Position numbers and translations under genes: made by a program. Shown piece by piece: positions 1-51,167 of a DNA stretch of 64,000 nt (positions are counted from its first letter, which is position 1; the number at the start of each line of letters is the position of its first letter). Below the pieces are notes generated by a model. That model had not been told where the DNA came from. It saw only the letters and a program-made list of their open reading frames with translations, and did not search any database. The stretch is from positions 62,001 to 126,000 of IMG/VR virus record IMGVR_UViG_3300031952_000002, one strand, 5' to 3'. The DNA comes from a virus.

Positions 1-2161
1 GATGCCTACTAAAATGGACTAGATCTAGCACCTTAAAATTATCTTCAGCTTTGGATATTTTGTCCCAAACACCCATTGCTGCGGGGGTTTGAAGCGAGGA
101 ACCTAAAACCTCTTTACCGGAAACTTTTTGGGCATGTTGATACATTGCAGTTGCCAGCCCTTTTCTTTGATGTTCAGGGAAAACATTAGTCATACCAGGC
201 ATAAGTTTATTTTCATGGAGTTCGTGAGGAACAATTATGGTATGGCCAACTATCTGACCTTGTGGACTTTTTGCATAAACGTGAAGTTCATCGTGCTCTT
301 CCTTGTCAGACAAATCTTCATCTTGATTTGCCTTCCATTCATGAAAAACATGATAACCTTCTTTTCGCCAATCACCATTTTGGCCTTTTTCTAAGTCTTC
401 AGCTTTAGATATAGCTTCAGACACCTTGCGATTGTGTTTTGTGTTTGACATCACAGCCAAAACAGCTTCAGTCAGGTTTTGGCCCATACCTGCCGTAAGG
501 TTAATAGAATACTTTGTTTCCAATTTGGTCATAAAGTCGTAAAGTTCAGATTTTTCGGTAGGCGGCAGTGTAAATATAAAATCGCTACCAGCAAACCCCA
601 GGAAATCTCCTGCGTGCTCTTCTATAAAAGACTCTATGTCTATTTTGATGTGTTGCAGCTTTTTGATTTTGTCGGTTAGCTCTTTTGTGCTGTTAGATTC
701 CAGGGAGTCAACTATGAAATCATATATGTCCTGGAAAGACAAACACACGGTAACCGGTTTGTATTTTTTGTCTTTTGGGTGACTTTTTTCTAGGGACTTA
801 AAAAGCTCTTCGCTTGGCTTAGGCCAGCCAAGGTTTACCATAGTTTCTATGGCTATTTGCCTTTGTTCGGATTTACCAAAAGGACGATTTTTTTGACCCC
901 ATAAAGCATAAGCATCCTCTGATTGTTGACCATCAGTACCTCTAATCTTCTTACCAGTTAACTTTTCTGCCATTACATATGCCGATGTTGCTAACCCTTT
1001 ACGTTGATGTGTATCTTCGGTATCACTATTAACAATACCCAGATGTTTTCCAGTATGATCGTGTTCGAAAATATAAAGCCCTGCCAACTTACCGCTTGGA
1101 TGATAGGCATGAATAATTACGCCATATTTATTAACTTTAGGGGTAAGTTTATAGCCTTCTTTTTGCCAATCACCATTTTGACCTTTTTCTAGGTCTTCGG
1201 ATTTGTTAACAATACCTTTACGCTTAGCCATTTCTCCAGCCCATTTGCTGACGTTTCTGTCTGGATCTCTAAGGCCCATCTGAACCGTGGTTTCATCTGC
1301 ACCAGGATGAGACAATAAAAGCTTTTTTATTCCCCACTTAGGATGGTTCATCATAAAGTTAAGTTCAGCAGGTTTATAGTTTTTATGTTTAGCCATATAA
1401 GGGGCTGCTGCAGCACCATGAGTATGAGGGGCACCAAAGTCACTGTTAACTATGTCGGTAGTTGGGAACTTGGTGTTGTCTCTAGGCACATTTTTGTGGG
1501 GGCTTACAATAAATTCGTCTTCGTGTCCGTGACCGGCTGGATCTGTGTCAGGGTGACCTAACTCATAGCTGAACCAAACGTTCTTTAAAGGAACGTGCTG
1601 GTGATGTTCATGTTGACCAAATTGTCCTTGAGTTTTGTCGGCTATGGAATACAAAGCATGGTCATCTCCCCTTTGGCTTGGGGTTATGTTCATGTTCCTA
1701 GCCAGACGCAAATGGGGGGTACCATTAAGTTGGTCTACGGCCTTAGGGGCATTTTGGGTAATAGTGTCATGCAAGCTACGCTGGTGAGCTAGTAGCTGCG
1801 GAACAATATGAGGGTTTTGGGCTAGACCGGCGCTAAGGCTATCTGTAGTTATGTGACCAATCTTTTTCGCGGCATTGCCTTGTTGGTGATGACTCAAAAA
1901 CGCCTGGTCCATCATTTTTTGTTGGTCTGGCTTAGATGCCGAATAAGCGTCAGCATTTTCAGATCTGTGGATAGCGTACTTTAGCAAAAGAGATGAAGGT
2001 GAATGGGGAGAATGCTTATAGCTAGAATACATCTCATTTAGTGTAGCATTTGGCTTAAAGTGCGGCGTAGGTGCGCTAATAGGCAAACTAGAATGGACCT
2101 GTAGCCCAATTTGCTTGTCTTGGCTGGTACTAGAAGACAATGCACTTGGGTGTTTAGTCAT
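1..2161 (-). CDS. Multidomain virion-region protein, GNAT-like / palm-like / GNAT-like (C-terminus beyond window)
   Basis: The frame is open from an ATG at 2161 to the left edge (720 codons, no stop), so the gene is 3'-truncated by the window. Residues 1-320 are His- and Gln-rich and mostly helical-looking. Residues about 336-410 and 601-705 look like two N-acetyltransferase (GNAT) cores; each has a Q-R-K-G-L-A-T acetyl-CoA loop (386-392 and 665-671) and each is introduced by a near-identical EDLEKGQNGDW(Q/R)KEGY segment. Between them, residues about 468-580 read as a GGDEF/mCpol-like palm: a first strand ending near D478, a hairpin with GSD (525-527) where GGD is usual, and a last strand plus helix running from TAGMG (556-560) to KHNRK. 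The start overlaps the stop of the upstream gene by 8 nt. Acetyl transfer or nucleotide cyclisation is inferred from motifs only. Substrates are unknown. Confidence 0.7.
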   Translation of the reverse strand, partial: MTKHPSALSSSTSQDKQIGLQVHSSLPISAPTPHFKPNATLNEMYSSYKHSPHSPSSLLLKYAIHRSENADAYSASKPDQQKMMDQAFLSHHQQGNAAKKIGHITTDSLSAGLAQNPHIVPQLLAHQRSLHDTITQNAPKAVDQLNGTPHLRLARNMNITPSQRGDDHALYSIADKTQGQFGQHEHHQHVPLKNVWFSYELGHPDTDPAGHGHEDEFIVSPHKNVPRDNTKFPTTDIVNSDFGAPHTHGAAAAPYMAKHKNYKPAELNFMMNHPKWGIKKLLLSHPGADETTVQMGLRDPDRNVSKWAGEMAKRKGIVNKSEDLEKGQNGDWQKEGYKLTPKVNKYGVIIHAYHPSGKLAGLYIFEHDHTGKHLGIVNSDTEDTHQRKGLATSAYVMAEKLTGKKIRGTDGQQSEDAYALWGQKNRPFGKSEQRQIAIETMVNLGWPKPSEELFKSLEKSHPKDKKYKPVTVCLSFQDIYDFIVDSLESNSTKELTDKIKKLQHIKIDIESFIEEHAGDFLGFAGSDFIFTLPPTEKSELYDFMTKLETKYSINLTAGMGQNLTEAVLAVMSNTKHNRKVSEAISKAEDLEKGQNGDWRKEGYHVFHEWKANQDEDLSDKEEHDELHVYAKSPQGQIVGHTIIVPHELHENKLMPGMTNVFPEHQRKGLATAMYQHAQKVSGKEVLGSSLQTPAAMGVWDKISKAEDNFKVLDLVHFSRH

Positions 2162-3221
2162 CGTTATCATCCCCTATAATAACATGATAAGGGTCTTCTA
2201 TTGGGCCGTCACCTAAAGTAGGGAAATCACTAGTAACTTGCCAAGATGGATTGTTTGGCTCGATAGGGTCAGTCAAACTAGTGCGTGGCTTATACCCAGC
2301 CCATCTACCTTTGTTATTGGGTCCATTAGGCCCATCTTCTATAAGAACTTGTCCTGTAATTACTTCCAGTTTAGGGGCAGCATGTTTAATCCAGGTGATT
2401 GGTACTACACCAGTCAAGGTTATATACCTAGAAAAAACAGTGTCGGCCTGGAAAGAATTATTTCTTTGAAGTGCGCTAGATGAAACTTTGGACAGCTCAA
2501 AAAGGCGACCTTCTAGGTAAGACTCTTTATATCGCATCAGGCAATACATCACAACCTGCCACATCCATATACAACATCCAGCATCGCCATTAGCATGACA
2601 AGCTATGGTGTAGCTTTCATTAATAAAAGAGATTTCTTGGTCTAGATTCCATACACCAAATTTGGTTCTGATGTGAGACCTGGAAAAGTTCTCCCTTAGA
2701 TCAGGAGCTATTCTAAATGAATTGTTTCCGGTAACTTCGTATATTACATAAGCTTTATTGGTTTTGTTGGCTACCAGAAATTGGCCTTCTCTGATATTAG
2801 CCATGCTAACCGTGCTAGGCACAATAACTATACCAGTTACAGTGTCATAAGACTCTACGCTAAATGTAGGGGTAAGGTTTCTGGCATTTGTGACAATACC
2901 AGTTGGGTCAAATGGATCTATAAGCCTTTGGTCGCCCAAAGAGGTGCGGTCCATAGCTTCACTGTTGTCATTATACGAAACAATAATACATGGCACCGGA
3001 ACCGTGTCGGCTATACGGTAAGCCAATAAAACAGGGATTTCATTATTTAAAAACCAGTTAGAAGCAGCTTCTACTTCTTTGTATCCATAGTCCTTAGAAG
3101 CAAGATAATCTTGAGCTAAGGTGCTAAATATGTCTTCAACTATCCACTTGTTTTTACGCAAATCCGCAATAGACGCTTCAAGCATCGTTTTTATCAAAAT
3201 ATCACTAGATAAAACACCCAT
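2154..3221 (-). CDS. Unrecognised virion-region protein
   Basis: This is a 355-residue protein I cannot assign. I chose the ATG at 3221 (MGVLSSDIL) because it overlaps the upstream stop as TAATG and has an AGGGG ribosome site about 9 nt before it; an in-frame start 48 nt further upstream would overlap the previous gene. The N-terminal third is helical, the middle is beta-rich, and a Cys/Trp-rich stretch (HANGDAGCCIWMW) lies near residue 225. The last 60 residues are Pro/Gly-rich and end in acidic DDNDD. It sits in a tightly coupled run of unrecognised genes downstream of the connector-like genes, so a neck, tail or virion role is likely but unproven. Confidence 0.65.
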   Translation of the reverse strand: MGVLSSDILIKTMLEASIADLRKNKWIVEDIFSTLAQDYLASKDYGYKEVEAASNWFLNNEIPVLLAYRIADTVPVPCIIVSYNDNSEAMDRTSLGDQRLIDPFDPTGIVTNARNLTPTFSVESYDTVTGIVIVPSTVSMANIREGQFLVANKTNKAYVIYEVTGNNSFRIAPDLRENFSRSHIRTKFGVWNLDQEISFINESYTIACHANGDAGCCIWMWQVVMYCLMRYKESYLEGRLFELSKVSSSALQRNNSFQADTVFSRYITLTGVVPITWIKHAAPKLEVITGQVLIEDGPNGPNNKGRWAGYKPRTSLTDPIEPNNPSWQVTSDFPTLGDGPIEDPYHVIIGDDNDD

Positions 3222-4072
3222 TATGCGCCCCTGAAATAGTCTTCTAAAGACTTTACTATTTTGTCCCATTCTTTAGTAGCATAATCGTATGCGGCAGGAA
3301 TACTGTGAAGAGGTTTAACTTCGGGGTACATCCACCTTCCCTCTGCCTCATGCTTGCTACTTACAACCCTAAATGTAACTACTTCTTTTTTGACCTTACC
3401 TCTTTTAGATGGTCTTTGGACCACAACTCCACCTGACAGATAGTGAGCACCTTCGTAGTTTGGTAGCCCTAGAGCTTCAGCTTCATCAGCTGTACGCCCT
3501 TTAGACCGGTATTGGTATATGTTGTCGCTAGCCGGGTCATTTAACTGAGGGATGTCTTTTAGCCTGTTAACTATGCCAATCATTGGCATTCCATCGGGGC
3601 CTTTTTCGATTTTACGCATACTGACGCCATTTGCCTTAAGGGAGGCATCTATAGCTTCTCTCATACCAGAAGGAGTGGTCAGAGCGTTTTTGTCATGGCT
3701 AAAAGGTATGACCTTGAATTTACTGCCATCTTTGGCAGTCTTAAGTCCCGGACCTGGTTTAAGCAGCCAGTCTTCTGTTGCCATACTCACGGCTGGCCTA
3801 CCGCTCTCGACCCACTTAGCTGATTCATCGATTTCTACTACCCACATATTCTTAGAAACTTGTATCCATCTGATATTGCTACCATCTTCACCTAAAAATG
3901 CTTCTAGTGGGTAACCTTTTAAGTGGTCCTGAGCATACTTGATAATAAAAGCGTGGGTGGAAATAGAAAGGGCCTCTACAGCCCCATTCAATTTCTTTGC
4001 TACCTCTTTTTCTACAACACCTAGCTTATCAGCTATTTCTTTGTAGTTAGCCCTTATGGTAAAGTCGGTCAC
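3221..4072 (-). CDS. Putative head-closure or tail-completion protein (gp10-like)
   Basis: The 283-residue product has a helical N-terminus followed by a W-V-E-S-G patch near residue 86. Its C-terminal half reads FRVVSSKHEAEGRWMYPEV and ends in a long helix. This order (early helix, W-x-E-x-G, then an F-R-V-V-S strand and W-x-x-P) resembles the HK97 gp10 / tail-completion group that joins the portal-connector to the tail, as far as can be judged by eye. It overlaps the upstream gene by 4 nt (ATGA-type coupling) and the downstream gene by a shared TAATG. The assignment is inference; the gene itself is certain. Confidence 0.55.
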   Translation of the reverse strand: MTDFTIRANYKEIADKLGVVEKEVAKKLNGAVEALSISTHAFIIKYAQDHLKGYPLEAFLGEDGSNIRWIQVSKNMWVVEIDESAKWVESGRPAVSMATEDWLLKPGPGLKTAKDGSKFKVIPFSHDKNALTTPSGMREAIDASLKANGVSMRKIEKGPDGMPMIGIVNRLKDIPQLNDPASDNIYQYRSKGRTADEAEALGLPNYEGAHYLSGGVVVQRPSKRGKVKKEVVTFRVVSSKHEAEGRWMYPEVKPLHSIPAAYDYATKEWDKIVKSLEDYFRGA

Positions 4073-5286
4073 TGCTGCTTAGCCTTTTGTTGTTGATTGT
4101 TGGCTTTTACCGATATATCAGTACCATCGGTAGCCTGAACTTGGCCTGAGGCCATTGAGCGCCATACTTCTTTACCGTTTACCAGAACTTTTTTGTAGTT
4201 GCCCTTGCGGGTTCCAACAGGGAAACGGATACCAGACATAGCCTGAGGACCAGAAGAACTGACGCCCTTTTTTTCTAGGTCTTGTTCAGATTTTTGAACT
4301 TGCTTGGCGCTGGTGATCAATTTCTGGATCATAGACATAGTTTGCTGGAAAGCTTTAGGGTCCTTGCTGGCCATAGCCATAATCTGAGGTATTTGCGCCT
4401 TAACGTCTTTAAGTTTGTCCATTAATTCTTGGTTGTGGTCGGCGGTAGCTTCTTTGGTAGCATCATCGACTTCTTGAGCTACTTCTTGTGCTGCCTGTTC
4501 TTGTTCCTGTCCGTCACCTTCGCCCTGTTGTTGTCCAGGTGCCTGTTGTTGTTGAGGCTGACCACTAAGTTGACCAAGCAAATCAGTAGTATTGGTATTA
4601 GCATGGGCATCTGGGTCTTCCTGGCCTTGCGGCTGTTGTTGTTGCTGGGCTTGTTGTTGTTGCATCATTTGCTGTTGTTGTTGAGCGGCTTGTTCGATTT
4701 CCCCGGCACCAAGCATTTCATTTATGGCTTGAATAAACTGGGCTTCAGCGCTAAAACTTTCTTTTAGAGACATACGCTTGGGCACTGGATTAGATTTTTG
4801 GTCTATAACTTTTTGGTAAGGCTTGTCATCTGGCTGTTCTGGGTCAAATAGGTTGGTAGGCAAACTGACGTTTTGATTTATGTTTGTTCTTGAATTGGAA
4901 GTTTTTGTAATTTTTTCTTGGTAAGTATCTGCCGGATTAAAAAGTTCAACTTTACCAGTTTTATAAGATTTCTTGGCAGCCATTGCCGCTTCTTGGAAAT
5001 CTAATCCAACACCAATAGCCAGTCCATCTCCAGCAGTTTCGGTAAAGTTTTCAATTAAATTAGGTAGTTCTGCCGCTACATCAATAGGTATTTCCATAGC
5101 TATAAAGTCTGGATTACAAAATGGCATAGATCCACCGTGGGATTCCACAGTAGATTTCATTTTGTCTATAAGTCCCTGTAATTCAAACTGATAATGGTTG
5201 GCTACGCTAAATCGGCCCTCTTTGGCCGAATTAATTAGTTTGTCTCTTACTGCATCCGCAAATATAACTGCCCATACCTTACTCAT
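4069..5286 (-). CDS. Virion-region protein with GGDEF/mCpol-like palm domain and Gln-rich linker
   Basis: This 405-residue protein has three parts. Residues 3-116 fit a minimal palm/cyclase fold: first strand VWAVIFAD with D11, a GGSMPFCNPDFIAMEIP hairpin (51-67) whose D60 falls where the GGD aspartate is expected, and LAIGVG (89-94) followed by the helix QEAAMAAKKSYKTGK. That is the same order as GGDEF, GTP cyclohydrolase III and mCpol proteins. Residues about 195-300 are strongly Gln-rich. The C-terminus is basic, with a G-I-R-F-P-V-G-T-R-K-G patch, and ends in Gln/Lys repeats. The gene starts 4 nt after the stop of the upstream gene. Both GGD glycines are replaced (N-P-D), so catalysis is doubtful. 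Function is unknown. Confidence 0.6.
   Translation of the reverse strand: MSKVWAVIFADAVRDKLINSAKEGRFSVANHYQFELQGLIDKMKSTVESHGGSMPFCNPDFIAMEIPIDVAAELPNLIENFTETAGDGLAIGVGLDFQEAAMAAKKSYKTGKVELFNPADTYQEKITKTSNSRTNINQNVSLPTNLFDPEQPDDKPYQKVIDQKSNPVPKRMSLKESFSAEAQFIQAINEMLGAGEIEQAAQQQQQMMQQQQAQQQQQPQGQEDPDAHANTNTTDLLGQLSGQPQQQQAPGQQQGEGDGQEQEQAAQEVAQEVDDATKEATADHNQELMDKLKDVKAQIPQIMAMASKDPKAFQQTMSMIQKLITSAKQVQKSEQDLEKKGVSSSGPQAMSGIRFPVGTRKGNYKKVLVNGKEVWRSMASGQVQATDGTDISVKANNQQQKAKQQ
4510..4700. repeat. CAA/CAG-type codon repeats encoding poly-glutamine tracts
   Basis: On the plus strand this stretch is full of ttg/ctg triplets, which read as CAA/CAG on the coding minus strand and encode runs of Gln interrupted by Met, Ala, Pro and Gly. 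It is an in-frame low-complexity linker within the gene at 4069-5286. Similar but shorter Gln tracts occur in the portal gene (about 26.47-26.58 kb) and the scaffold-like gene (about 15.98-16.07 kb). Confidence 0.75.
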
Positions 5287-5290
5287 ACGC

Positions 5291-6406
5291 TCACCTGTAT
5301 TTTGTATTCAGCTTGTTTTTTAAGGTTTCGACAAAAGCTTCAATGATTTCTGGATCTGCTTTTGAACTAAAACTTATTTTATATCCACCAGATGTTTTAC
5401 TCAACCTTAAAAACGCTTTATTTTTGTTTTCTTGGGAAGTTACATAAAAACAAGCACAAGGGGAATATTTTGGGCCAGACTCGGACTTAGTAAACTCAGG
5501 AGTTTTGCAATGAGGGCAAGGAGCGTATAAATCTGATTCGCTTATTGTGATTTCCGGCTCTTTTTTCTCTAGTTGAGCTTTAGTAAGATAGTTCCTGAAA
5601 TAAGTGGCTGGTGTAGATGTAGGTTTGGCAGGTTTAGTGGCTGCGATGTTGAGTTTGTGTTGGATCATGGCCGGATTTTGTGCGGTATCGGCTTTTGTTT
5701 GCCCTTTGGTTTGCTGGGTAACTTGTTTGGTCATTGCCGCTTTAGGGTCTCTAGATGGAGCTGTTGCTTTAAGTGGAGCTACCGGTCCGTTTGGGGCAGC
5801 GTGGCCACTTGGGGCACCAGTTTCGTGCATTCCAGCTTTTTCAATCTTTTCTTTAGAGTCTTCCACCGCTTTAGCGGTAAACTTTTCGTCCATTATTCGA
5901 TCAATAACTTTACCAAGAATTTTAGTAACTTCCACCATTGCATTAATGGCAGTGTCGGACTGTGGCATAACTGGCATATGAATATCTGAGGCAGACATCA
6001 AGGCCGCTGGCAATTCACTAGAACCAGCTTTTTTGCCGTCATAGTCTTCAGTCATGGACATCAAATGTCCGCCAAAGGCTGGCAAAGTTTGGTTTTCAAA
6101 GGAATGGACAATATGTCCACCTTTTATGAATTGGGCAGTATAGGCATCTAGGCCAGTTTTATTGACTTGGATCTTTAGGTCGTCTAGGCCAGGATAAGAT
6201 AAAACCTTTTCGTCACCTGGGTGCATAGGCTTAATGGAAGATACTAGCCAGGACAATATGGTTCTAGGGACAGCTAAAATAGGCAGATACATATCAATAG
6301 GAGACAAAAGAGATTTGCTGTCCCTACGATACATAGTCTTACTTAGCGTTTCAAAGCCGTCATCGCCAAGCAAGCTTTTTAGTAGTTTTTCTGCCTTAGT
6401 GTGCAT
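5291..6406 (-). CDS. Unrecognised virion-region protein with C-terminal zinc-finger-like motif
   Basis: The 371-residue protein has a helical N-terminal 100 residues and a central Ala/Pro/Lys/Thr-rich linker (about 190-270). Its C-terminal module contains CPHCKTPEF and later YSPCACF, a four-cysteine arrangement suited to one zinc ion, followed by a small beta-alpha region. The gene lies 4 nt upstream of the palm-domain gene and 3 nt downstream of 6410-6805, in the same minus-strand run. I recognise no family. A nucleic-acid or protein-binding role for the zinc module is only a guess. Confidence 0.65.
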   Translation of the reverse strand: MHTKAEKLLKSLLGDDGFETLSKTMYRRDSKSLLSPIDMYLPILAVPRTILSWLVSSIKPMHPGDEKVLSYPGLDDLKIQVNKTGLDAYTAQFIKGGHIVHSFENQTLPAFGGHLMSMTEDYDGKKAGSSELPAALMSASDIHMPVMPQSDTAINAMVEVTKILGKVIDRIMDEKFTAKAVEDSKEKIEKAGMHETGAPSGHAAPNGPVAPLKATAPSRDPKAAMTKQVTQQTKGQTKADTAQNPAMIQHKLNIAATKPAKPTSTPATYFRNYLTKAQLEKKEPEITISESDLYAPCPHCKTPEFTKSESGPKYSPCACFYVTSQENKNKAFLRLSKTSGGYKISFSSKADPEIIEAFVETLKNKLNTKYR

Positions 6407-6832: not shown

Positions 6833-7801
6833 TTACGTTTTTGGGCCTTTAGTGGGTGGAGCGCCGAAATTTCCTACAGTATTATTAGTAGCTTCCGGGT
6901 AAATACCGCTATATTGACGAGGAGCCAAATCGCTTCTTGGGTCATCCCCCTGAAGAGGTCTAGCTGGATCATTGCGGTTTTTATCCATAAAGATATTTTC
7001 CCTTAGTGCCAAAACCTCAAAAGGCATTCTTTCAAGCTTTCTTTCATAGGTTAAGGGATCGGTAACATTTGTAACTCTGATTTCATGTAAGATCTTATCA
7101 ACTATGAAAAAAGGAGTATACAAATAACGTACCGCATAAACAGTTTCTCTTCCTATTGTTGGATTATACCCAGGTCTTCTTTGGGTGGTCCATTTAAGCC
7201 AGCCCTCAGAAGTAATGACAAAATCTTTGTCTTGGGTATATTCTTCGCCATTAGCATCTACAAGGTCCACAACCTTTAGAGCAGGGAATTGCAAACGATC
7301 TATTCCAGTTGAACTGGCTTCCATGTATTGCATACAAGATACATACATTTCTATGTCAGCTAAATAGAATCTATCCCAAGCTTGCAAAATTACTGGCTCT
7401 AAACTATCTTCGTAATACCTTGTAACTGTTAAATAAACTGAAGCAAAAGACAGGTTTCCCATATCTTCAGCTTTTGTGTCTTTAGTATTATTATGGAACC
7501 AAGCATACACATGTCCGGAATTTTTGTAAATATATCCATCAGAGTTGCGCGGTCTAAGATTCATTACATCTCTATTGTCACCACGGCTGGCCATACCTCT
7601 TGGGTCTGGCAAAGCTCTTTGATGAACAAGCCTTACTCCGTGAGTTTTGATCAAAAAATCGAATTTGTCTGCATCAAAACTGACCTGAGATTTAGTTAGG
7701 TCAATAATGCTTTGAGGACCTTCAAGAGGCCTATCTACTCTTGGTCTTGGACCATTGTCTGTATGGTCGGTACGACCTTTAGGTGGCTTAGGTGGCTTCA
7801 T
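6833..7801 (-). CDS. Unrecognised virion structural-type protein
   Basis: The product is 322 residues. It has a Pro-rich basic N-terminus (MKPPKPPKGRTDH), a mixed alpha/beta core with many aromatic residues (YIYKNSGHVYAWFHN; VYAVRYLYTPFFIVDKIL), and a disordered Asn/Pro/Gly-rich tail. The tyrosine-rich beta core and its place among connector-like genes suggest a virion component. The start overlaps the upstream stop by 4 nt. I do not recognise the family. Confidence 0.6.
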   Translation of the reverse strand: MKPPKPPKGRTDHTDNGPRPRVDRPLEGPQSIIDLTKSQVSFDADKFDFLIKTHGVRLVHQRALPDPRGMASRGDNRDVMNLRPRNSDGYIYKNSGHVYAWFHNNTKDTKAEDMGNLSFASVYLTVTRYYEDSLEPVILQAWDRFYLADIEMYVSCMQYMEASSTGIDRLQFPALKVVDLVDANGEEYTQDKDFVITSEGWLKWTTQRRPGYNPTIGRETVYAVRYLYTPFFIVDKILHEIRVTNVTDPLTYERKLERMPFEVLALRENIFMDKNRNDPARPLQGDDPRSDLAPRQYSGIYPEATNNTVGNFGAPPTKGPKT

Positions 7802-8271: not shown

Positions 8272-8672
8272 AAAGTAAACATCCTTTTGATTCTATCAAG
8301 GAAAGTCGGCTTGTTGTGTTCTGGTTCGATTTCCTTGTCTTCAAAGGCATTGTCTCTAATAATATGCTCTTTTTGATCTTCTCTGGCCCGATACTCTAAC
8401 CACTTATAAAAATCAAAAGAAAAATCAATGCTTTTAGGTAGCTGCAATTGAGTTTTAATTAATGGTTTTTCTTTATTAAAATGGGCCGCCAAATAAGAAG
8501 TACTGTTAAAATACCTCAATAAGAAAACTTTTGCTTCATCAAGATCTTTTGCTTTGTCTAGCATAAGGCTTATGGATGGGTAACTTTCAACAATTGGTTC
8601 CATGTCAGACCAGTTGTTAACTTTAAACTGTTTTTCTTCATTGCTCATGGTGTTTTTAACTATTAATATCAC
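8268..8672 (-). CDS. Unrecognised small protein in virion run, likely GTG start
   Basis: The 134-residue frame opens with GTG at 8672 (MILIVKNTMSN), preceded by AAGGAA about 9 nt upstream. The first in-frame ATG at 8648 lacks a clear ribosome site, so I prefer the GTG. The body is helical with a basic C-terminus (FLDRIKRMFTL). The gene overlaps the end of the kinase-like gene by 17 nt. No family is recognised. Confidence 0.55.
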   Translation of the reverse strand: MILIVKNTMSNEEKQFKVNNWSDMEPIVESYPSISLMLDKAKDLDEAKVFLLRYFNSTSYLAAHFNKEKPLIKTQLQLPKSIDFSFDFYKWLEYRAREDQKEHIIRDNAFEDKEIEPEHNKPTFLDRIKRMFTL

Positions 8673-9978
8673 CTAAGAATTTCCTTACCTTGTGTGACAT
8701 AAATGGAGTTAAATGTTTGGCCCCATTTGGCATCTTGTCGTCATGGGCAAGTATATCACGGAGTTTAAGTTTGTCTAGGTGTTTATGGTAGTCAGTTTTT
8801 TTGCCGTTGTCTTGCATAAGAGCTTTAGTTATATGAAGTTTGGCTTGGATTCCATTGTCGTTATGTGGAAAATTACCTAATATTTCTAACAATTTATCTT
8901 TAGGTATATCATTAAACTGCTCTTTGCCTGTAGCTGAGCCAACAGCTTCAGATATATCCCATGGATTATGAGTTTTTCCATGCAAAGATTTAGCTACGTG
9001 ATTTAAAGCTTTGTCTGGGGTACCATCAAGATATAGAACATTACTTTTGTTTTTTGGTTGATCTGCGGAAATATCCGAAAAGAATGGTTCATGCCCAGCT
9101 AAAGTGTCATTTGCCCATTTAGTCATGGCATCGTGTCTGGATTTATAAGAAGATACTATGTGATTTTTCCAGTCATCATGTTTAATGCCGTTAGCTTCAT
9201 CAATCAAAGAGCCTTTAACTTTTGGAGCACTATTTAACCACCAAGATGCTAAATTTTTAGCATGTTGGTGGTCTCTATCGGCCTCTGGAGTAAAACGATA
9301 TAAAGCACTGTTACGCGTTAAGTCTTCCATTGAGTTAGTACCACGATCATAACCAAAAGCGAAAGAGTGATCAATAGCTAGTGGACTGTGATACCCTTTT
9401 TGGTCTGGAAGATTATTGGCCATTATATTGCCAGAATGTCTGTCAATATTACCTGTAAGGTAGTCCATTACATTAATTTTATTAGCAACAAGTGGATCTA
9501 TTTGATGTTTTTGATGGTTATATTCTTCAGTATTATCAGCAAACTTGTGGACCATTACCGGCATTTCACCAATAGAAGTGCTTAGAGTGTGGTGTTTTAC
9601 ATCTTCGATGTTGTGGTGTAGGCCAGCCGCTTCGTACATTCTTTTTGTGGCTGAGGTAGCAAATCCACCTAAACCGTTGTTTACTTTAGAGTTATAAGGC
9701 TTAACCATAAACGTACTGTTTGGCGTTTTGTATACCAGCTTGTCTTCATACCCTTCAGCCATATTTTTAGGCTTGTGGTGTTCGCTAGAAGACACGGCTT
9801 GATCAAAGTCCGCATGACCGCCAGCAGATTGGGTAGGTTTCAGATATGACGCAGATTCTTCATTGTGGGCCTTACTAGCAAAATCAGTCAATGAGGGCTG
9901 GTCTAGCTTTTTAGCCAGCAACTGTTCAGTAGGTAAGTACTCAGGTTGAGTCCTTAGTGTATACCACGCCTTTATCAT
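8656..9978 (-). CDS. HipA/phosphoinositide-kinase-like protein kinase fold, apparently intact
   Basis: This 440-residue protein carries the signature of the HipA / PI3-4K-like / FAM20-like kinase branch. MVKPY has K93 as candidate ATP-binding lysine, and a helix contains E116. The catalytic segment GNIDRHSGN (176-184) has D179 as candidate base and N184 as metal ligand, and LAIDHSFAFG (200-209) has metal-binding D203. The residues needed for phosphotransfer are therefore present. Family members phosphorylate proteins or lipids; the substrate here is unknown. It lies between connector-like and small virion genes, so it may be packaged in the particle or act late. The first 75 residues are poorly ordered and the C-terminal 200 residues are helical and His-rich. 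Confidence 0.6.
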   Translation of the reverse strand: MIKAWYTLRTQPEYLPTEQLLAKKLDQPSLTDFASKAHNEESASYLKPTQSAGGHADFDQAVSSSEHHKPKNMAEGYEDKLVYKTPNSTFMVKPYNSKVNNGLGGFATSATKRMYEAAGLHHNIEDVKHHTLSTSIGEMPVMVHKFADNTEEYNHQKHQIDPLVANKINVMDYLTGNIDRHSGNIMANNLPDQKGYHSPLAIDHSFAFGYDRGTNSMEDLTRNSALYRFTPEADRDHQHAKNLASWWLNSAPKVKGSLIDEANGIKHDDWKNHIVSSYKSRHDAMTKWANDTLAGHEPFFSDISADQPKNKSNVLYLDGTPDKALNHVAKSLHGKTHNPWDISEAVGSATGKEQFNDIPKDKLLEILGNFPHNDNGIQAKLHITKALMQDNGKKTDYHKHLDKLKLRDILAHDDKMPNGAKHLTPFMSHKVRKFLGDINS

Positions 9979-23232: not shown

Positions 23233-23827
23233 TTTTTGCCCCGTAAACCATGTCGTTAAGGAGTTTGCGCATTAGCTTTTGATTGTTCTGGTCCAGTTCG
23301 CTAAAGTAAGCTTTTTCGATATGTGGGTCATGTCCATGGGAATAGCTGCCAAGTTCGGTCTTAGACATTTTTTGACTAGCCAAAGAATAGTCATTAAACT
23401 GCTGCTGTCTGGCGTTTCCTACATGGTCTTCAACTGGTCTTGGTATACCCTGAAGCTCATTTGGCATGTCAAGGTTAGCTTTGGATGCCACCTTAAGCTT
23501 GCCGGTAGCCAACAACTCATGGACGCGCTTGAACTCATCTTGACTAAGCATTCGATTATTAAGGGCAGCGGTTAGTCCATCGGAGGTAATTTCAATTGTG
23601 TCGCCATTAGTTAAACTATAGGTATGAGATTTTACATTAGGGTTGCTAATGATCTCTAAGCTGTCACTTTCGTCAATAGCGTTGATGCCTGCCATTACAC
23701 CTTTGGCAAACATCTTTTGGATCTTACCGCCAGTTTTGTCGTAAGTAAAAAGTAAAGTTTTACCATCAGTGCGAATTTCGGCCAAAGCTTCATTCGTATG
23801 AGGAGATTTGATTATCAGAGCCTGCAT
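23225..23827 (-). CDS. Unrecognised protein upstream of the giant gene
   Basis: This 200-residue protein has a beta-rich N-terminal half (MQALIIKSPHTNEALAEIRTDGKTLLFTYDK) and a helical C-terminal half with NDYSLASQKMSKTE. It overlaps the protease gene by 38 nt upstream and the giant gene by 8 nt downstream, so the three are probably translated from one message. No family is recognised. Confidence 0.6.
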   Translation of the reverse strand: MQALIIKSPHTNEALAEIRTDGKTLLFTYDKTGGKIQKMFAKGVMAGINAIDESDSLEIISNPNVKSHTYSLTNGDTIEITSDGLTAALNNRMLSQDEFKRVHELLATGKLKVASKANLDMPNELQGIPRPVEDHVGNARQQQFNDYSLASQKMSKTELGSYSHGHDPHIEKAYFSELDQNNQKLMRKLLNDMVYGAKND

Positions 23828-25457
23828 TGTTTAACTCTTCAAAAAGCTGGTTGAAAGTCCTGCCGTGAGACTTTTGTTTGATATGGTCCAAATTTCTCTG
23901 AGCTTTAGCGGCGTTAGCTGGCGATGCGCCAGTATTATTAATAAGATACACGTAAAGCTGGGAAGGGTCAAGCTGGTCTAGCCATTCTTGGGTCTGGGGT
24001 ACTAGCATATCTTCCCCTAAACCGGAATTTTCCTGGTCGTCATAATAGTCTGAAGGATTTCCGTTAGAAAACTTGTACAAAGGCCCGTTATTGACGTGGG
24101 TAATTTGGCCACCATTTGCAGCCGTGTCTCCCCAGGTCCTAGATGGATGACCTAGACACAAATCAACTATAGCCATTTGTTGAAGTCGGCCAGTTTGCCT
24201 AGCTTGTTGCAAGGCATTTTGGTAGCCTTCGGTGCCCATTGGCTCATAGTCGTTACAAGAATTGATGCCCAAAACCGTGTTGTATAGACTTGGGTGGTCA
24301 CACCATGCCGTATTTGGAGTAATATCTGGTAACTTAAAGAAATTCTTAGCAATTTCATGGTACTTAGTGGCGTCTTTGAATTTGTCTGCCGCCTTTGGGT
24401 TGACCGACAGTTTGATCAACATTGTGCCATGAGTAGGGCTATTATACAAAAACTTGCTATTTTTGCTTTGCAGTCTTTTCAGTTTTCCAGGTACGTCCTT
24501 TTTCATGTCTATCATAGGTACAGCCTGCAGGGCTGCATGAGCCAGACTGTCCTGGCTAAATGATGCATTGCCATTAGACAAAGCCGACAAACTAGGTTCA
24601 GTTTTCTTTAGGTGGAGTTCTTGGGTGACGCCTTCAAAGTGATCCAAGTAGTCATCACTTACTTCAGGTAAAGCTGCTTTGAGGATTGGTCGAAGAGGTG
24701 ATTTTCCATCCCAACTGGCTACTATCTTAGCAAGTTTTTTGCGTCTTTCGGGTGACAACCCGGCAAGACTTTCTCTTTGCAAGGCTGAGCCTTGAGTCAA
24801 GGTAGATGGAGCTGCATTGTAGCTGCCAGCCGTAAGAGTTTTCTTAAGGGCCAACACCGCTTCTTTGATTGTTTCTAGTGGGGTAACGGTTTTAGCTATG
24901 TCTTCAAAGATAGCATCTTCGACTTCAATAGTTCTATAGGAAGGTTCGGTGTCCCATCCCATAGTTTTTTCTATGTCGTCGCCTTCGTAAATATCTGATA
25001 TTGCTGACTTATTGCACGGACGAGCGGTTAGTGCAAGTCTTCTACCAACAGATCTCTTTAACTCATATCCTTGTCTTTCTAATGTGGAACCTTCAATAGA
25101 AAACCCAACAACCATTGGAGTTTTTCTTTTTTGGCAATATCTAAACATTGCCGCACAGGCAACCGCACCTGGATGTTTTTCATCATCAAATAGTTCCGAT
25201 ATTACATACACAAAAGGAGTTTTGACCTTGTCCCAAAACATTTCCTGGCGCTTGTTATCACAGTCAGACTTTTTCATTATCTTTTTTGCAAAAATAATCT
25301 TGCCAACTATATCTTCTGGTGAGTCATTTTGGTGCTCCCAGTTCACCAAACCACGACCTTCAACTAAGTCAGAGATGTCATGCCCTTCAATATGGAGCAT
25401 TTCTCCTGAAGAATCAATATGTTGCGATGCAGCAATTCCATCGATTTTTAATCCCAA
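23790..25457 (-). CDS. Prohead protease fused to a kinase-like (probable pseudokinase) domain
   Basis: The 555-residue protein begins at a TTG codon (25457) with AGAGG 6 nt upstream. Residues 1-160 are a HK97/T4 gp21-type prohead serine protease: GLVNWEH with H42, and VVGFSIEGSTLERQGYELKR with S120, followed by RLALTARPCN. Residues 206-227 repeat the capsid N-terminal arm (YNAAPSTL...QGSALQ). Residues about 325-550 resemble the HipA/PI3K-like kinase fold, with K349 in TMLIKLS. The catalytic segment, however, reads GHPSRTWGD (436-444) and the metal segment reads THVNNGPL (N456), lacking both expected aspartates. Proteolysis of capsid and scaffold is the likely first role; the C-terminal domain is probably a pseudokinase. 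Typical prohead proteases are about 200 residues, so the fusion is unusual. Confidence 0.75.
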   Translation of the reverse strand: MGLKIDGIAASQHIDSSGEMLHIEGHDISDLVEGRGLVNWEHQNDSPEDIVGKIIFAKKIMKKSDCDNKRQEMFWDKVKTPFVYVISELFDDEKHPGAVACAAMFRYCQKRKTPMVVGFSIEGSTLERQGYELKRSVGRRLALTARPCNKSAISDIYEGDDIEKTMGWDTEPSYRTIEVEDAIFEDIAKTVTPLETIKEAVLALKKTLTAGSYNAAPSTLTQGSALQRESLAGLSPERRKKLAKIVASWDGKSPLRPILKAALPEVSDDYLDHFEGVTQELHLKKTEPSLSALSNGNASFSQDSLAHAALQAVPMIDMKKDVPGKLKRLQSKNSKFLYNSPTHGTMLIKLSVNPKAADKFKDATKYHEIAKNFFKLPDITPNTAWCDHPSLYNTVLGINSCNDYEPMGTEGYQNALQQARQTGRLQQMAIVDLCLGHPSRTWGDTAANGGQITHVNNGPLYKFSNGNPSDYYDDQENSGLGEDMLVPQTQEWLDQLDPSQLYVYLINNTGASPANAAKAQRNLDHIKQKSHGRTFNQLFEELNNAGSDNQISSYE

Positions 25458-49018: not shown

Positions 49019-49243
49019 TTAAAAGAACTTGCTTACTTCATTGGCGCTGAGATGTTTATATATCACATCTCTAGCTGCCTCATATCCTTCCATATATTCT
49101 TCAGATTTCTTTTCATCGTACTTAACAACAGATCTCATTTCTTGCAGAGCATCCCAGACAGCGGATATGATTTCATTAACCGCCATTGTTCTTTCAATTT
49201 GCTCTTTGTCTTCAAAACCATCGAATTCTAAAGTTACTTTCAT
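49019..49243 (-). CDS. Small acidic protein after the chaperonin
   Basis: The 74-residue protein (MKVTLEFDGFEDKEQIERTM...) is acidic and helical after a first beta strand. Its ATG overlaps the chaperonin stop as ATGA, implying coupled translation with GroEL-like protein. No family is recognised. Confidence 0.65.
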   Translation of the reverse strand: MKVTLEFDGFEDKEQIERTMAVNEIISAVWDALQEMRSVVKYDEKKSEEYMEGYEAARDVIYKHLSANEVSKFF

Positions 49244-51000
49244 TTGTCATCTCCTATTGCATTGTTAAATCCACGCGCAAAAGATCTTTCCTGTTCATCA
49301 GCTTCATGGTCACGGTTAAAGGAAACTATCCCACCAAGCGTACCAAGAAGGCTTGAAATGCTAATGCTATTTTCAATAGCTTGGGTGACCGCACTAGATG
49401 AGTCGAGAAGTAATAAGGGACTAACAAAGGCTTCTTTATAAATGTCGTAAGGCTGATTACCACTTTTGATTTTAGCAATGATTTCATTCTCTTCCTCTGT
49501 TGTATGGCCAAAGTTATCAAATAATTTACGAACAGGTCGCATAAAAGCCGCTGCAAGCACACTAGCAGCATGGCAATCAGCAAAATTAGTAGACTCAAGA
49601 GCTATGTTTGTAAGATCGTCAGCCAATTTAACTAGGACGTAACCCCCTCCAGGGCAAGCCCCATCCTTAATAGCGCCCCTGATAGCCATCCAGGCATCGT
49701 CAGCCCGGTCACGGCGCTCCCTAGTTTCACCAACACTAGGACCGCAGATATACATCCTGGCAATACCAGAAGTAAGTTTGCCAATCCTTACATTTAGGTC
49801 GTTTTGCTCATATTGAGATTCAGGAGACTTTAGAAGTTCCTTAAGCTGATCTACCCGGTACTCCAAAAGCAATGGATCTTCTTTGGAAATGATACTTGTG
49901 CGGTATCGATTCATTTCCACAGCGGTTACCAGGTTATCCCTTACTATAGCATTTATGTCCATACCAGACAATGGCTTGTCCATTACATTAAAAACCGGGG
50001 CTCCAGTATAAGCCTGGAGATCAAGAAGGAATTGGGTCTTCCAACCCGGAATGGGACTTTCAGGGGTCATTAAGGGTAAAATTTTGGGAGTATTAGGGTG
50101 GTTCCAATTCGCGTGCATGTCGGCCAGGAACACATCCGAAAACCCATGGGCAATTAAAAGCACATTCTTATGGGGAGTCTTGGCGGTTTCAAAATGTTCC
50201 GCCAATTTAGACAAAGCGTCCCAAACCAACATAACATCATTAATTACACCATCATACAACACAACAACCGGGTTTTCTAGTCCAATTATAGTGCCGGTTT
50301 TGTCATTAATAAACCCACTGGAGAACTTTTTTAAGGTTTCTTCGTAGCCACGGTCAATGGTGTAGCCATTGATGCGCTCAATTTTGATCTCAGTGGGGCC
50401 AGTAGTCTCTACAATAGTCAAGTTGCCCTCTTCACCTACCAAATCAAAAGACTCGACAATCTTAGTGGCCAGATCTTCGTCAGCATTAGCGGACAACTTG
50501 GCTACCTGAAAAAGAAAGGTTTCGTAATCTTCTAAGTCCACCTGGATGGTATATTTGTCTTTTACCAGCTGCTTGATGACCGGCACTAGCTTTTGCATGG
50601 ACCGAACTAACAGTTGGGGAGACAATTTAGGGTTGGACTGGACCACGTCATGGGTAAGTTTGCAGATAGCAGCAGACAAAATAGTGCAACTAGTGGTGCC
50701 ATCACCTGCCTCAATAGCAGTCCTTAAAGCGCCAGCTCGAGAAGACTCCAAGATAAGCTGTTTAACTGGATCGTGGTATCCAAGATGCTTAATAACGGTA
50801 ACGCCATCTTTGGTAATAATTGGATCATAGTTGATTTGAGGGTTCTCAATCAAAACCTGGCGACCACCCGGTCCAAGAGTAGCTCCAACTATCTCAGCAA
50901 TGTTGTTTAGAGTCTCAACCACCACTTTGGCCAAATCCTTCCGATTAGAAATGATCTGCTTGGAAGCTGACTTGGGTTTTGCTGTATGGAAAATGCTCAA
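49240..51000 (-). CDS. GroEL-like chaperonin (Hsp60)
   Basis: The 586-residue protein shows GroEL landmarks: ATLGPGGRQVLI, TKDGVTVIKHL, EAGDGTTSCTI (ATP-site aspartate) and GETRERRDRADDAW followed by GACPGGGYVLV, with the second catalytic aspartate in RADDAW. It lacks the usual C-terminal Gly-Gly-Met tail and has an altered apical region. I place the start at a TTG (51000) that overlaps the stop of the upstream small gene as TTGA and has GGAG upstream; longer starts are less likely. It would fold capsid or other phage proteins. A GroES-like candidate is encoded at 33175-33465. Confidence 0.9.
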   Translation of the reverse strand: MSIFHTAKPKSASKQIISNRKDLAKVVVETLNNIAEIVGATLGPGGRQVLIENPQINYDPIITKDGVTVIKHLGYHDPVKQLILESSRAGALRTAIEAGDGTTSCTILSAAICKLTHDVVQSNPKLSPQLLVRSMQKLVPVIKQLVKDKYTIQVDLEDYETFLFQVAKLSANADEDLATKIVESFDLVGEEGNLTIVETTGPTEIKIERINGYTIDRGYEETLKKFSSGFINDKTGTIIGLENPVVVLYDGVINDVMLVWDALSKLAEHFETAKTPHKNVLLIAHGFSDVFLADMHANWNHPNTPKILPLMTPESPIPGWKTQFLLDLQAYTGAPVFNVMDKPLSGMDINAIVRDNLVTAVEMNRYRTSIISKEDPLLLEYRVDQLKELLKSPESQYEQNDLNVRIGKLTSGIARMYICGPSVGETRERRDRADDAWMAIRGAIKDGACPGGGYVLVKLADDLTNIALESTNFADCHAASVLAAAFMRPVRKLFDNFGHTTEEENEIIAKIKSGNQPYDIYKEAFVSPLLLLDSSSAVTQAIENSISISSLLGTLGGIVSFNRDHEADEQERSFARGFNNAIGDDK

Positions 51001-51167
51001 TTTGTTTCTCCGCCATCTTGACTTGGCTTTTCCCAAGGTTTTATTTGATCGTCTCTTATCTGTTTCATAAAGTCAAGAAATTCTTTGTGCTGGTCCAAAG
51101 TTTCCTCAACCGTCATTTCTGGTTCAGGTGGCGGCGGAACTGGAATCTCGTTTTCTTCGTCGTTCAT
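50997..51167 (-). CDS. Small acidic/Pro-rich protein upstream of the chaperonin
   Basis: This short gene codes for 56 residues (MNDEENEIPVPPPPEPEMTVEETL...). Its TGA overlaps the TTG start of the chaperonin, so it likely couples or titrates chaperonin translation. It overlaps the winged-helix gene end by 44 nt. The Pro/Glu-rich N-terminus and helical middle match no known family. Confidence 0.6.
   Translation of the reverse strand: MNDEENEIPVPPPPEPEMTVEETLDQHKEFLDFMKQIRDDQIKPWEKPSQDGGETN

Follow-up and report, generated by a model that had tools for sequence, protein, structure and literature searches.

The window analysed here, a 64,000-nucleotide stretch comprising positions 62001-126000 of a 136,843-base virus contig, contains a gene for a 405-residue protein whose N-terminal part is a degenerate mCpol palm domain. 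Homology, fold, and synteny make it the local representative, a degenerate one, of an mCpol-domain family that is spread among phages and occupies a fixed neck/tail-completion slot in contractile-tailed relatives of Myxococcus phage Mx1. Subscription literature aside, mCpol has so far been described only as a rare immune enzyme of bacteria and archaea, which use it in the anti-phage system Panoptes (PMC12657218, PMC12657230). The phage palms, possibly delivered with the virion, most likely manipulate or bind host cyclic-nucleotide signals. The features of the window that enter the argument are as follows.

4069..5286, minus strand: 405-aa palm gene with an ATG start; N-terminal mCpol-like palm, Q-rich linker, and conserved C-terminal helical hairpin plus tail
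4936..5286, minus strand: degenerate mCpol palm domain, residues 1 to about 117 (Pfam PF18182 on residues 11-114; AF2 models and Foldseek)
5260..5262, minus strand: codon for F9, in alignments the site of catalytic Asp6 of OptS
5254..5256, minus strand: codon for D11, aligned with OptS Asp8
5107..5109, minus strand: codon for D60, aligned with catalytic Asp57 of OptS; the GGDE of orthologues is NPDF here
4492..4701, minus strand: Q-rich low-complexity linker, about residues 196-265, from reading the sequence; 34% Q over residues 197-290
4108..4434, minus strand: conserved C-terminal region, residues 285-393, a helical hairpin and a PVGT...W.S...G.V..DG tail
5291..6406, minus strand: conserved upstream neighbour, 371 aa, with a C-terminal Cys-rich ribbon (by eye); same position in nearly all relatives
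3221..4072, minus strand: conserved downstream neighbour, 283 aa, phrog_16819, the SPO1 gp7.1 family
2154..3269, minus strand: next conserved neighbour, 371 aa, phrog_1000, the SPO1 gp7.2 family
6833..7801, minus strand: phrog_1004 virion structural protein family (SPO1 gp6.4 family), the upper border of the slot
2..2170, minus strand: beginning of an 886-aa ORF that runs on past the window's edge (61510-64170 of the record); it bears a GNAT domain and a further, likewise degenerate mCpol palm
446..730, minus strand: mCpol domain of the 886-aa protein, the second in this genome; it exceeded the cut-off with 26.5 bits in the own-genome search and scored 22.1 bits, E 2.1e-4, in another search
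116..361, minus strand: residues 604-685 of the 886-aa protein, a GNAT acetyltransferase domain (Pfam PF00583, E 1.8e-6)

The open reading frame named in a preliminary description of this DNA is present at the first of these positions, on the minus strand; the plus strand across the same interval is not open and has many stops. The residues quoted there were likewise found in the DNA, namely the hairpin GGSMPFCNPDFIAMEIP (residues 51-67), D11, D60, and IGVG followed by EA-x2-A. The gene starts 4 bases past its upstream neighbour, and its stop overlaps the start of the downstream one.

Residues 1 to about 117 are an mCpol palm domain by both profile and fold. The Pfam mCpol model PF18182 matched the 405-aa protein at E 0.0045 and 17.8 bits, aligning residues 11-114 with profile positions 7-110 of 114; this score is below the curated cut-off of 26.4 bits, and such a match would not stand alone. 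A search of the phage's own genome gave the palm gene an E of 1.1e-4. When the ORFs of the phage were searched with a profile of other phage palms, built without the window palm and its five nearest relatives, the 405-aa protein came up at E 3.5e-11. Against that profile none of 5000 shuffles of the domain scored as high as the real one, the best reaching E 0.024. AlphaFold2 modelled the domain with a pLDDT of 69.7 from the single sequence and of 89.7 (pTM 0.80) from an alignment of 34 relatives, its elements running beta-alpha-alpha-beta-beta-alpha-beta-alpha. For both models the top six fold matches in the PDB were Panoptes OptS/mCpol (probability 1.00, TM-score 0.63-0.75), at E 2.4e-6 to 1.1e-5 for the alignment-based one, and these outranked every GGDEF, adenylyl cyclase, and Cas10 entry. 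In BFVD, a single viral model came below E 1e-3, the uncharacterised protein A0A6J5L1I5.

The preliminary description had seen in these residues a layout common to GGDEF, GTP cyclohydrolase III, and mCpol. Profile and fold uphold the last of the three. PF00990 (GGDEF) was silent on the window protein at E <= 1 in the Pfam search, and GTP cyclohydrolase III had neither a model in the protein's Pfam list nor an entry among the best 50 fold matches. Degeneration from a GGDEF (c-di-GMP) or GTP cyclohydrolase III domain is scarcely credible as the origin of this one. All of them belong to the wider palm superfamily, GGDEF entries come next in the fold search, and other proteins of the lineage have true GGDEF domains, but the size of the domain and the near full-length coverage of PF18182 fit mCpol, and OptS comes first by fold.

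The catalytic residues of OptS are D6 and D57 (PMC12657218). Alignment with OptS places F9 of the window copy at D6, D11 at D8, and D60 at D57, so that the first catalytic Asp is missing and the second is present. The earlier reading that the glycines of GGD had become N-P while D60 was kept agrees with this alignment; the first strand does contain D11, as had been said, but its catalytic position is residue 9. Because D6 is replaced by F9 and GGD by N-P-D, the window copy is probably catalytically dead. It is best called a degenerate mCpol homologue, one without two mCpol features, the curated score and D6, and the degenerate minimal palm that had been proposed is supported in this form by sequence profile, fold, and synteny. 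We consider it very unlikely that the window copy is still an active cyclase working through D11 and D60 with the first metal ligand shifted. In favour are D11 itself and the fact that several degenerate copies have retained Asp at OptS position 8; against this, D11 aligns with D8 and not D6, N-P replaces the GG turn, and the nearest relatives of the window copy have E, N, A, F, or S at position 6 and varied residues at 57.

Mx1 (169.6 kb) was indicated as a relative by terminase, at 32% identity, and by portal, at 46%. The major capsid proteins of this phage, of the window phage, and of the relative G004 were aligned, and with the alignment 71 IMG/VR loci were retrieved; 70 had 50-69% identity, and the remaining one had 27%. 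The lineage related to Mx1 is a large one, its genomes being mostly of 125-180 kb. Among 50 related records PF18182 had matches in 40, over the curated cut-off in 34 and at best with 73.6 bits; a further batch of 22 added 10 over the cut-off, including a Deltaproteobacteria MAG with two. With a family profile, the palm was found in 31 of the 33 records over 100 kb, the exceptions being G029 and the distant G058, and an orthologue palm matches the solved OptS by sequence at E 5e-9.

No PHROGs family covers the palm protein, not even its intact members, and PADLOC on the orthologues reported only CARF_HEPN_mCpol or Cas10, at the palm residues. Tblastn against 50,697 phage records found nothing with the window palm, nothing with OptS or the G038 palm, and only Mx1 with the G004 palm. 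Protein scans of viral contigs with window palms gave one near-identical contig, and a scan of genome contigs with the portal gave none. The rows of a 14-row palm alignment differed too much to serve in a pattern scan; a 4-row alignment led to a phage contig binned in a Deltaproteobacteria MAG. This MAG (G079, isolate bog_1112, GTDB) has two different phage-type mCpol genes, on contigs C54 and C461. For the C461 copy (L184/L200) at least, the contig is that of a phage and the conserved neighbours are present, which hints at the host range.

Nearly all regions examined have the same order of genes: the adaptor gene (phrog_1004), a small gene, a gene of the 371-aa type, the palm gene, phrog_16819, and phrog_1000. 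The window, Mx1, and G004 agree in it, and the Mx1 orthologue, WNM70340.1, annotated as a hypothetical protein in a genome announcement that left most genes unassigned (PMC10720576), is a degenerate palm in this slot. The flanking equivalents of SPO1 gp6.4 and gp7.1 bear out the preliminary placement of the gene in a virion region. SPO1 itself has no palm gene at this place, since gp7.1 (phrog_16819) and gp7.2 (phrog_1000) come immediately after gp6.4 (phrog_1004); the palm gene and two neighbours are therefore an addition to a module common to SPO1-type phages. From gene order, the protein is possibly located in the virion.

Several other genes of these phages deserve mention. True GGDEF domains (PF00990) were found in 11 of 50 relatives (G036, G037, G040, G042, G047, G048, G049, G051, G052, G055, and G057) and in Mx1, where the protein WNM70324.1 (L017 17173-17904) is annotated as a nucleotide cyclase. 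At least in Mx1 and G047, the GGDEF gene lies between the portal and major capsid genes; that of G047 is the C-terminal part of a 1437-aa protein whose N terminus matches a prohead-protease-like protein. The prohead-protease-like protein of the window (23790-25457, minus strand) has a peptide, LTAGSYNAAPSTLTQGSAL, nearly identical to the N terminus of the major capsid protein and common to relatives, which is perhaps a cleavage or targeting signal. Among the structural genes, 8656-9978 (minus strand) gave weak PI3/PI4-kinase and HipA-like kinase matches and may be a further effector. The phage also encodes a GroEL-type chaperonin of 598 aa (49240-51036, minus strand; PF00118, E 1.9e-33).

Most orthologues of the window palm are not degenerate. 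Both catalytic Asp residues are kept in 37 of 57 phage palms, a set that includes a few near-copy rows, usually as D-G-D and GGDE, and the remaining 20 do not keep both. The position of OptS Ser30 is Ser in most intact phage palms and Q in the window copy. The degenerate copies form one group with the window, G009, G010, G011 (neck slot), G012, G013, G014, and G054 and a second with Mx1, G052, G041, G046, G043, and G050; further cases are G037, G077, G025, G033, and G053. On a capsid-protein tree, a quick one with several open forks, about six or seven changes of catalytic state are needed; G011 was scored active there through a GNAT-linked palm while its neck-slot palm is degenerate, so that change is no loss in the slot. 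By this tree, the catalytic residues have been lost several times separately. The two degenerate pairs compared have dN/dS ratios of about 0.06 (G014/G054) and 0.08 (G043/G050), values of purifying selection, and in these pairs the inactive domain has thus been kept under selection.

Such constraint could mean that the protein is purely structural, the palm fold having been taken over by a neck protein, to which nucleotide chemistry is irrelevant, as an aid to folding or oligomerisation, with the window, Mx1, and other copies showing its real role. The gene is a core gene among the head-tail joining genes, and about 20 copies lack catalytic residues although both pairs tested are constrained. 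Yet 37 members keep D-x-D and G-G-D together, which is unexpected of a structural relic, two relatives keep the rest of the protein without the palm, and GNAT enzymes are fused to the palm in several members; we regard this explanation as a distinct possibility, though a secondary one. An inactive palm such as that of the window or Mx1 might alternatively act as a sponge or decoy, in line with the decoy or regulator considered in the preliminary description; by binding ATP or cyclic nucleotides of the host it would dampen signalling by CBASS, Panoptes, or type III systems. Its fold is kept, as are some site residues (D60 and, past the last strand, the G-x-G), there is constraint on the degenerate copies tested, and phage sponges of such signals, Acb2 and Tad1, are known (PMC12657218). 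The GG turn and metal site are gone, however, Mx1 and others also lack D57, and Q stands where OptS has its base-reading Ser30, and we therefore think a sponge unlikely.

Past the palm, the protein has a long disordered stretch, Q-rich in the window and rich in Cys knuckles in G004, and then the conserved helical hairpin, often followed by a tail of the form PVGS..DGK.KV....W.SVRAG.V...G.P.SSRNPG. In G029 and G061 the hairpin and tail are kept in the slot and the palm is absent. The palm protein also bears GNAT domains in G036, G040, and G049. G011 has, besides its neck-slot palm, a GNAT-mCpol protein whose site is intact (70.1 bits, D/GGDD), and the 886-aa protein of the window, judged by domain content, appears to be the degenerate counterpart of that protein. 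G011 is a near relative of the window phage, and an S-AdoMet-lyase-like gene (L145:2950-4014) lies directly upstream of its intact GNAT-mCpol gene. In G053 the palm is the central part of a 705-aa protein (L222:775-2892), whose additional N-terminal region has no Pfam match; a reading of that region by eye as a lytic transglycosylase was dropped, Pfam having found nothing.

With a palm that is detachable, has lost catalysis repeatedly, and is associated with GNAT enzymes, the picture resembles a conflict module on a protein of the late or structural region, similar to what has been put forward for polyvalent proteins with GGDEF domains (PMC5512222). We favour, with a probability of roughly one in two, the explanation that the palm is a detachable effector module in a protein of the late/virion program and acts on host nucleotide signalling. 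Intact members would be dimeric cyclases like OptS that make a small cyclic nucleotide, probably of adenine; in OptS a preference for adenine comes from S30, and most intact palms have Ser there. The conserved hairpin and tail would anchor the protein in the late/virion program, and the palm would be carried along as an effector, delivered early or made during infection, with host signalling such as CBASS, Panoptes, or type III CRISPR as its target. The window palm would synthesise nothing and may have been kept for binding a nucleotide or partner or for oligomerisation. Several points tell against this explanation: near-universal conservation across the lineage is equally expected of a structural part, the 405-aa protein has a single recognisable domain, a search of the phages for a Cap15-type receptor, whose control was silent too, gave no match, and the association of sponges with intact palms described below is not significant.

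A more specific version is doubtful though conceivable. The lineage-wide core OptS-like mCpol would, in its intact members, make a cyclic dinucleotide of the kind that holds Panoptes-type effectors closed (or a competing decoy), letting the phage deploy sponges without triggering the guard, and in members on guard-free hosts catalysis would be lost and the fold retained for some other purpose. Supplying this nucleotide would be of advantage to a phage that depletes cyclic nucleotides. Small genes with the Acb2/Tad1 hairpin occur in the relatives G023, G024, G030, and G047, each with a catalytically intact mCpol, and Tad2 had no match over the cut-off. The association of sponges with intact palms (4 of 32 genomes) was dropped as support, since it is not significant (Fisher p 0.27) and the genomes are related.

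The phage palms resemble Panoptes OptS (PF18182; PDB 9PD0, 9MNR, 9NWN) in being minimal palms of about 115 residues with the same order of strands and helices, and intact orthologues have the same pair of catalytic Asp residues and, in most, S30. They differ in that their genes lie in a structural cluster and encode a longer protein, and the window copy lacks D6 and the GG turn. Panoptes pairs mCpol with a receptor-effector (S-2TMbeta, or 2TM-CARF/SAVED); no S-2TMbeta/OptE partner was found for the phage palms, Cap15_CD_rec (PF18153) having no match in 32 records in a search whose control was silent too, and the conserved neighbours belong to structural-gene families. The GGDEF/diguanylate-cyclase-like proteins of Bacillus phages G and SP-15 and Bordetella phage CN1 in BFVD are also phage-encoded nucleotide-cyclase palms, but of the GGDEF type and with weaker fold matches. 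Phage polyvalent proteins, some with GGDEF, GNAT, or ART domains and suggested to be injected with the DNA (PMC5512222, Iyer et al. 2017), are similar in joining effector domains to phage proteins among structural genes and in their GNAT companions. They are dissimilar in that mCpol goes unmentioned in the main text of that work and the palm slot is conserved across a whole lineage. Several disparate effector domains, a mark of polyvalent proteins, are found in the 886-aa protein (GNAT and palm) and in the G036, G040, and G049 orthologues, and Pfam recognises one domain in the 405-aa protein. The Mx1 protein WNM70340.1 is a close parallel to the window gene described here, a syntenic orthologue with a degenerate palm and the same helical hairpin and tail; unlike the window copy it has lost both catalytic Asp residues, and Mx1 has a separate, intact-looking GGDEF protein. 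Given that nearly all members of an uncharacterised phage lineage have an mCpol gene, in most cases with the active site intact, phages with intact palms may make or bind alarm-type nucleotides, and one may ask whether phages synthesise decoy signals themselves. The question is directly testable, since Mx1 grows under laboratory conditions and an assay of OptE toxicity has already been published.
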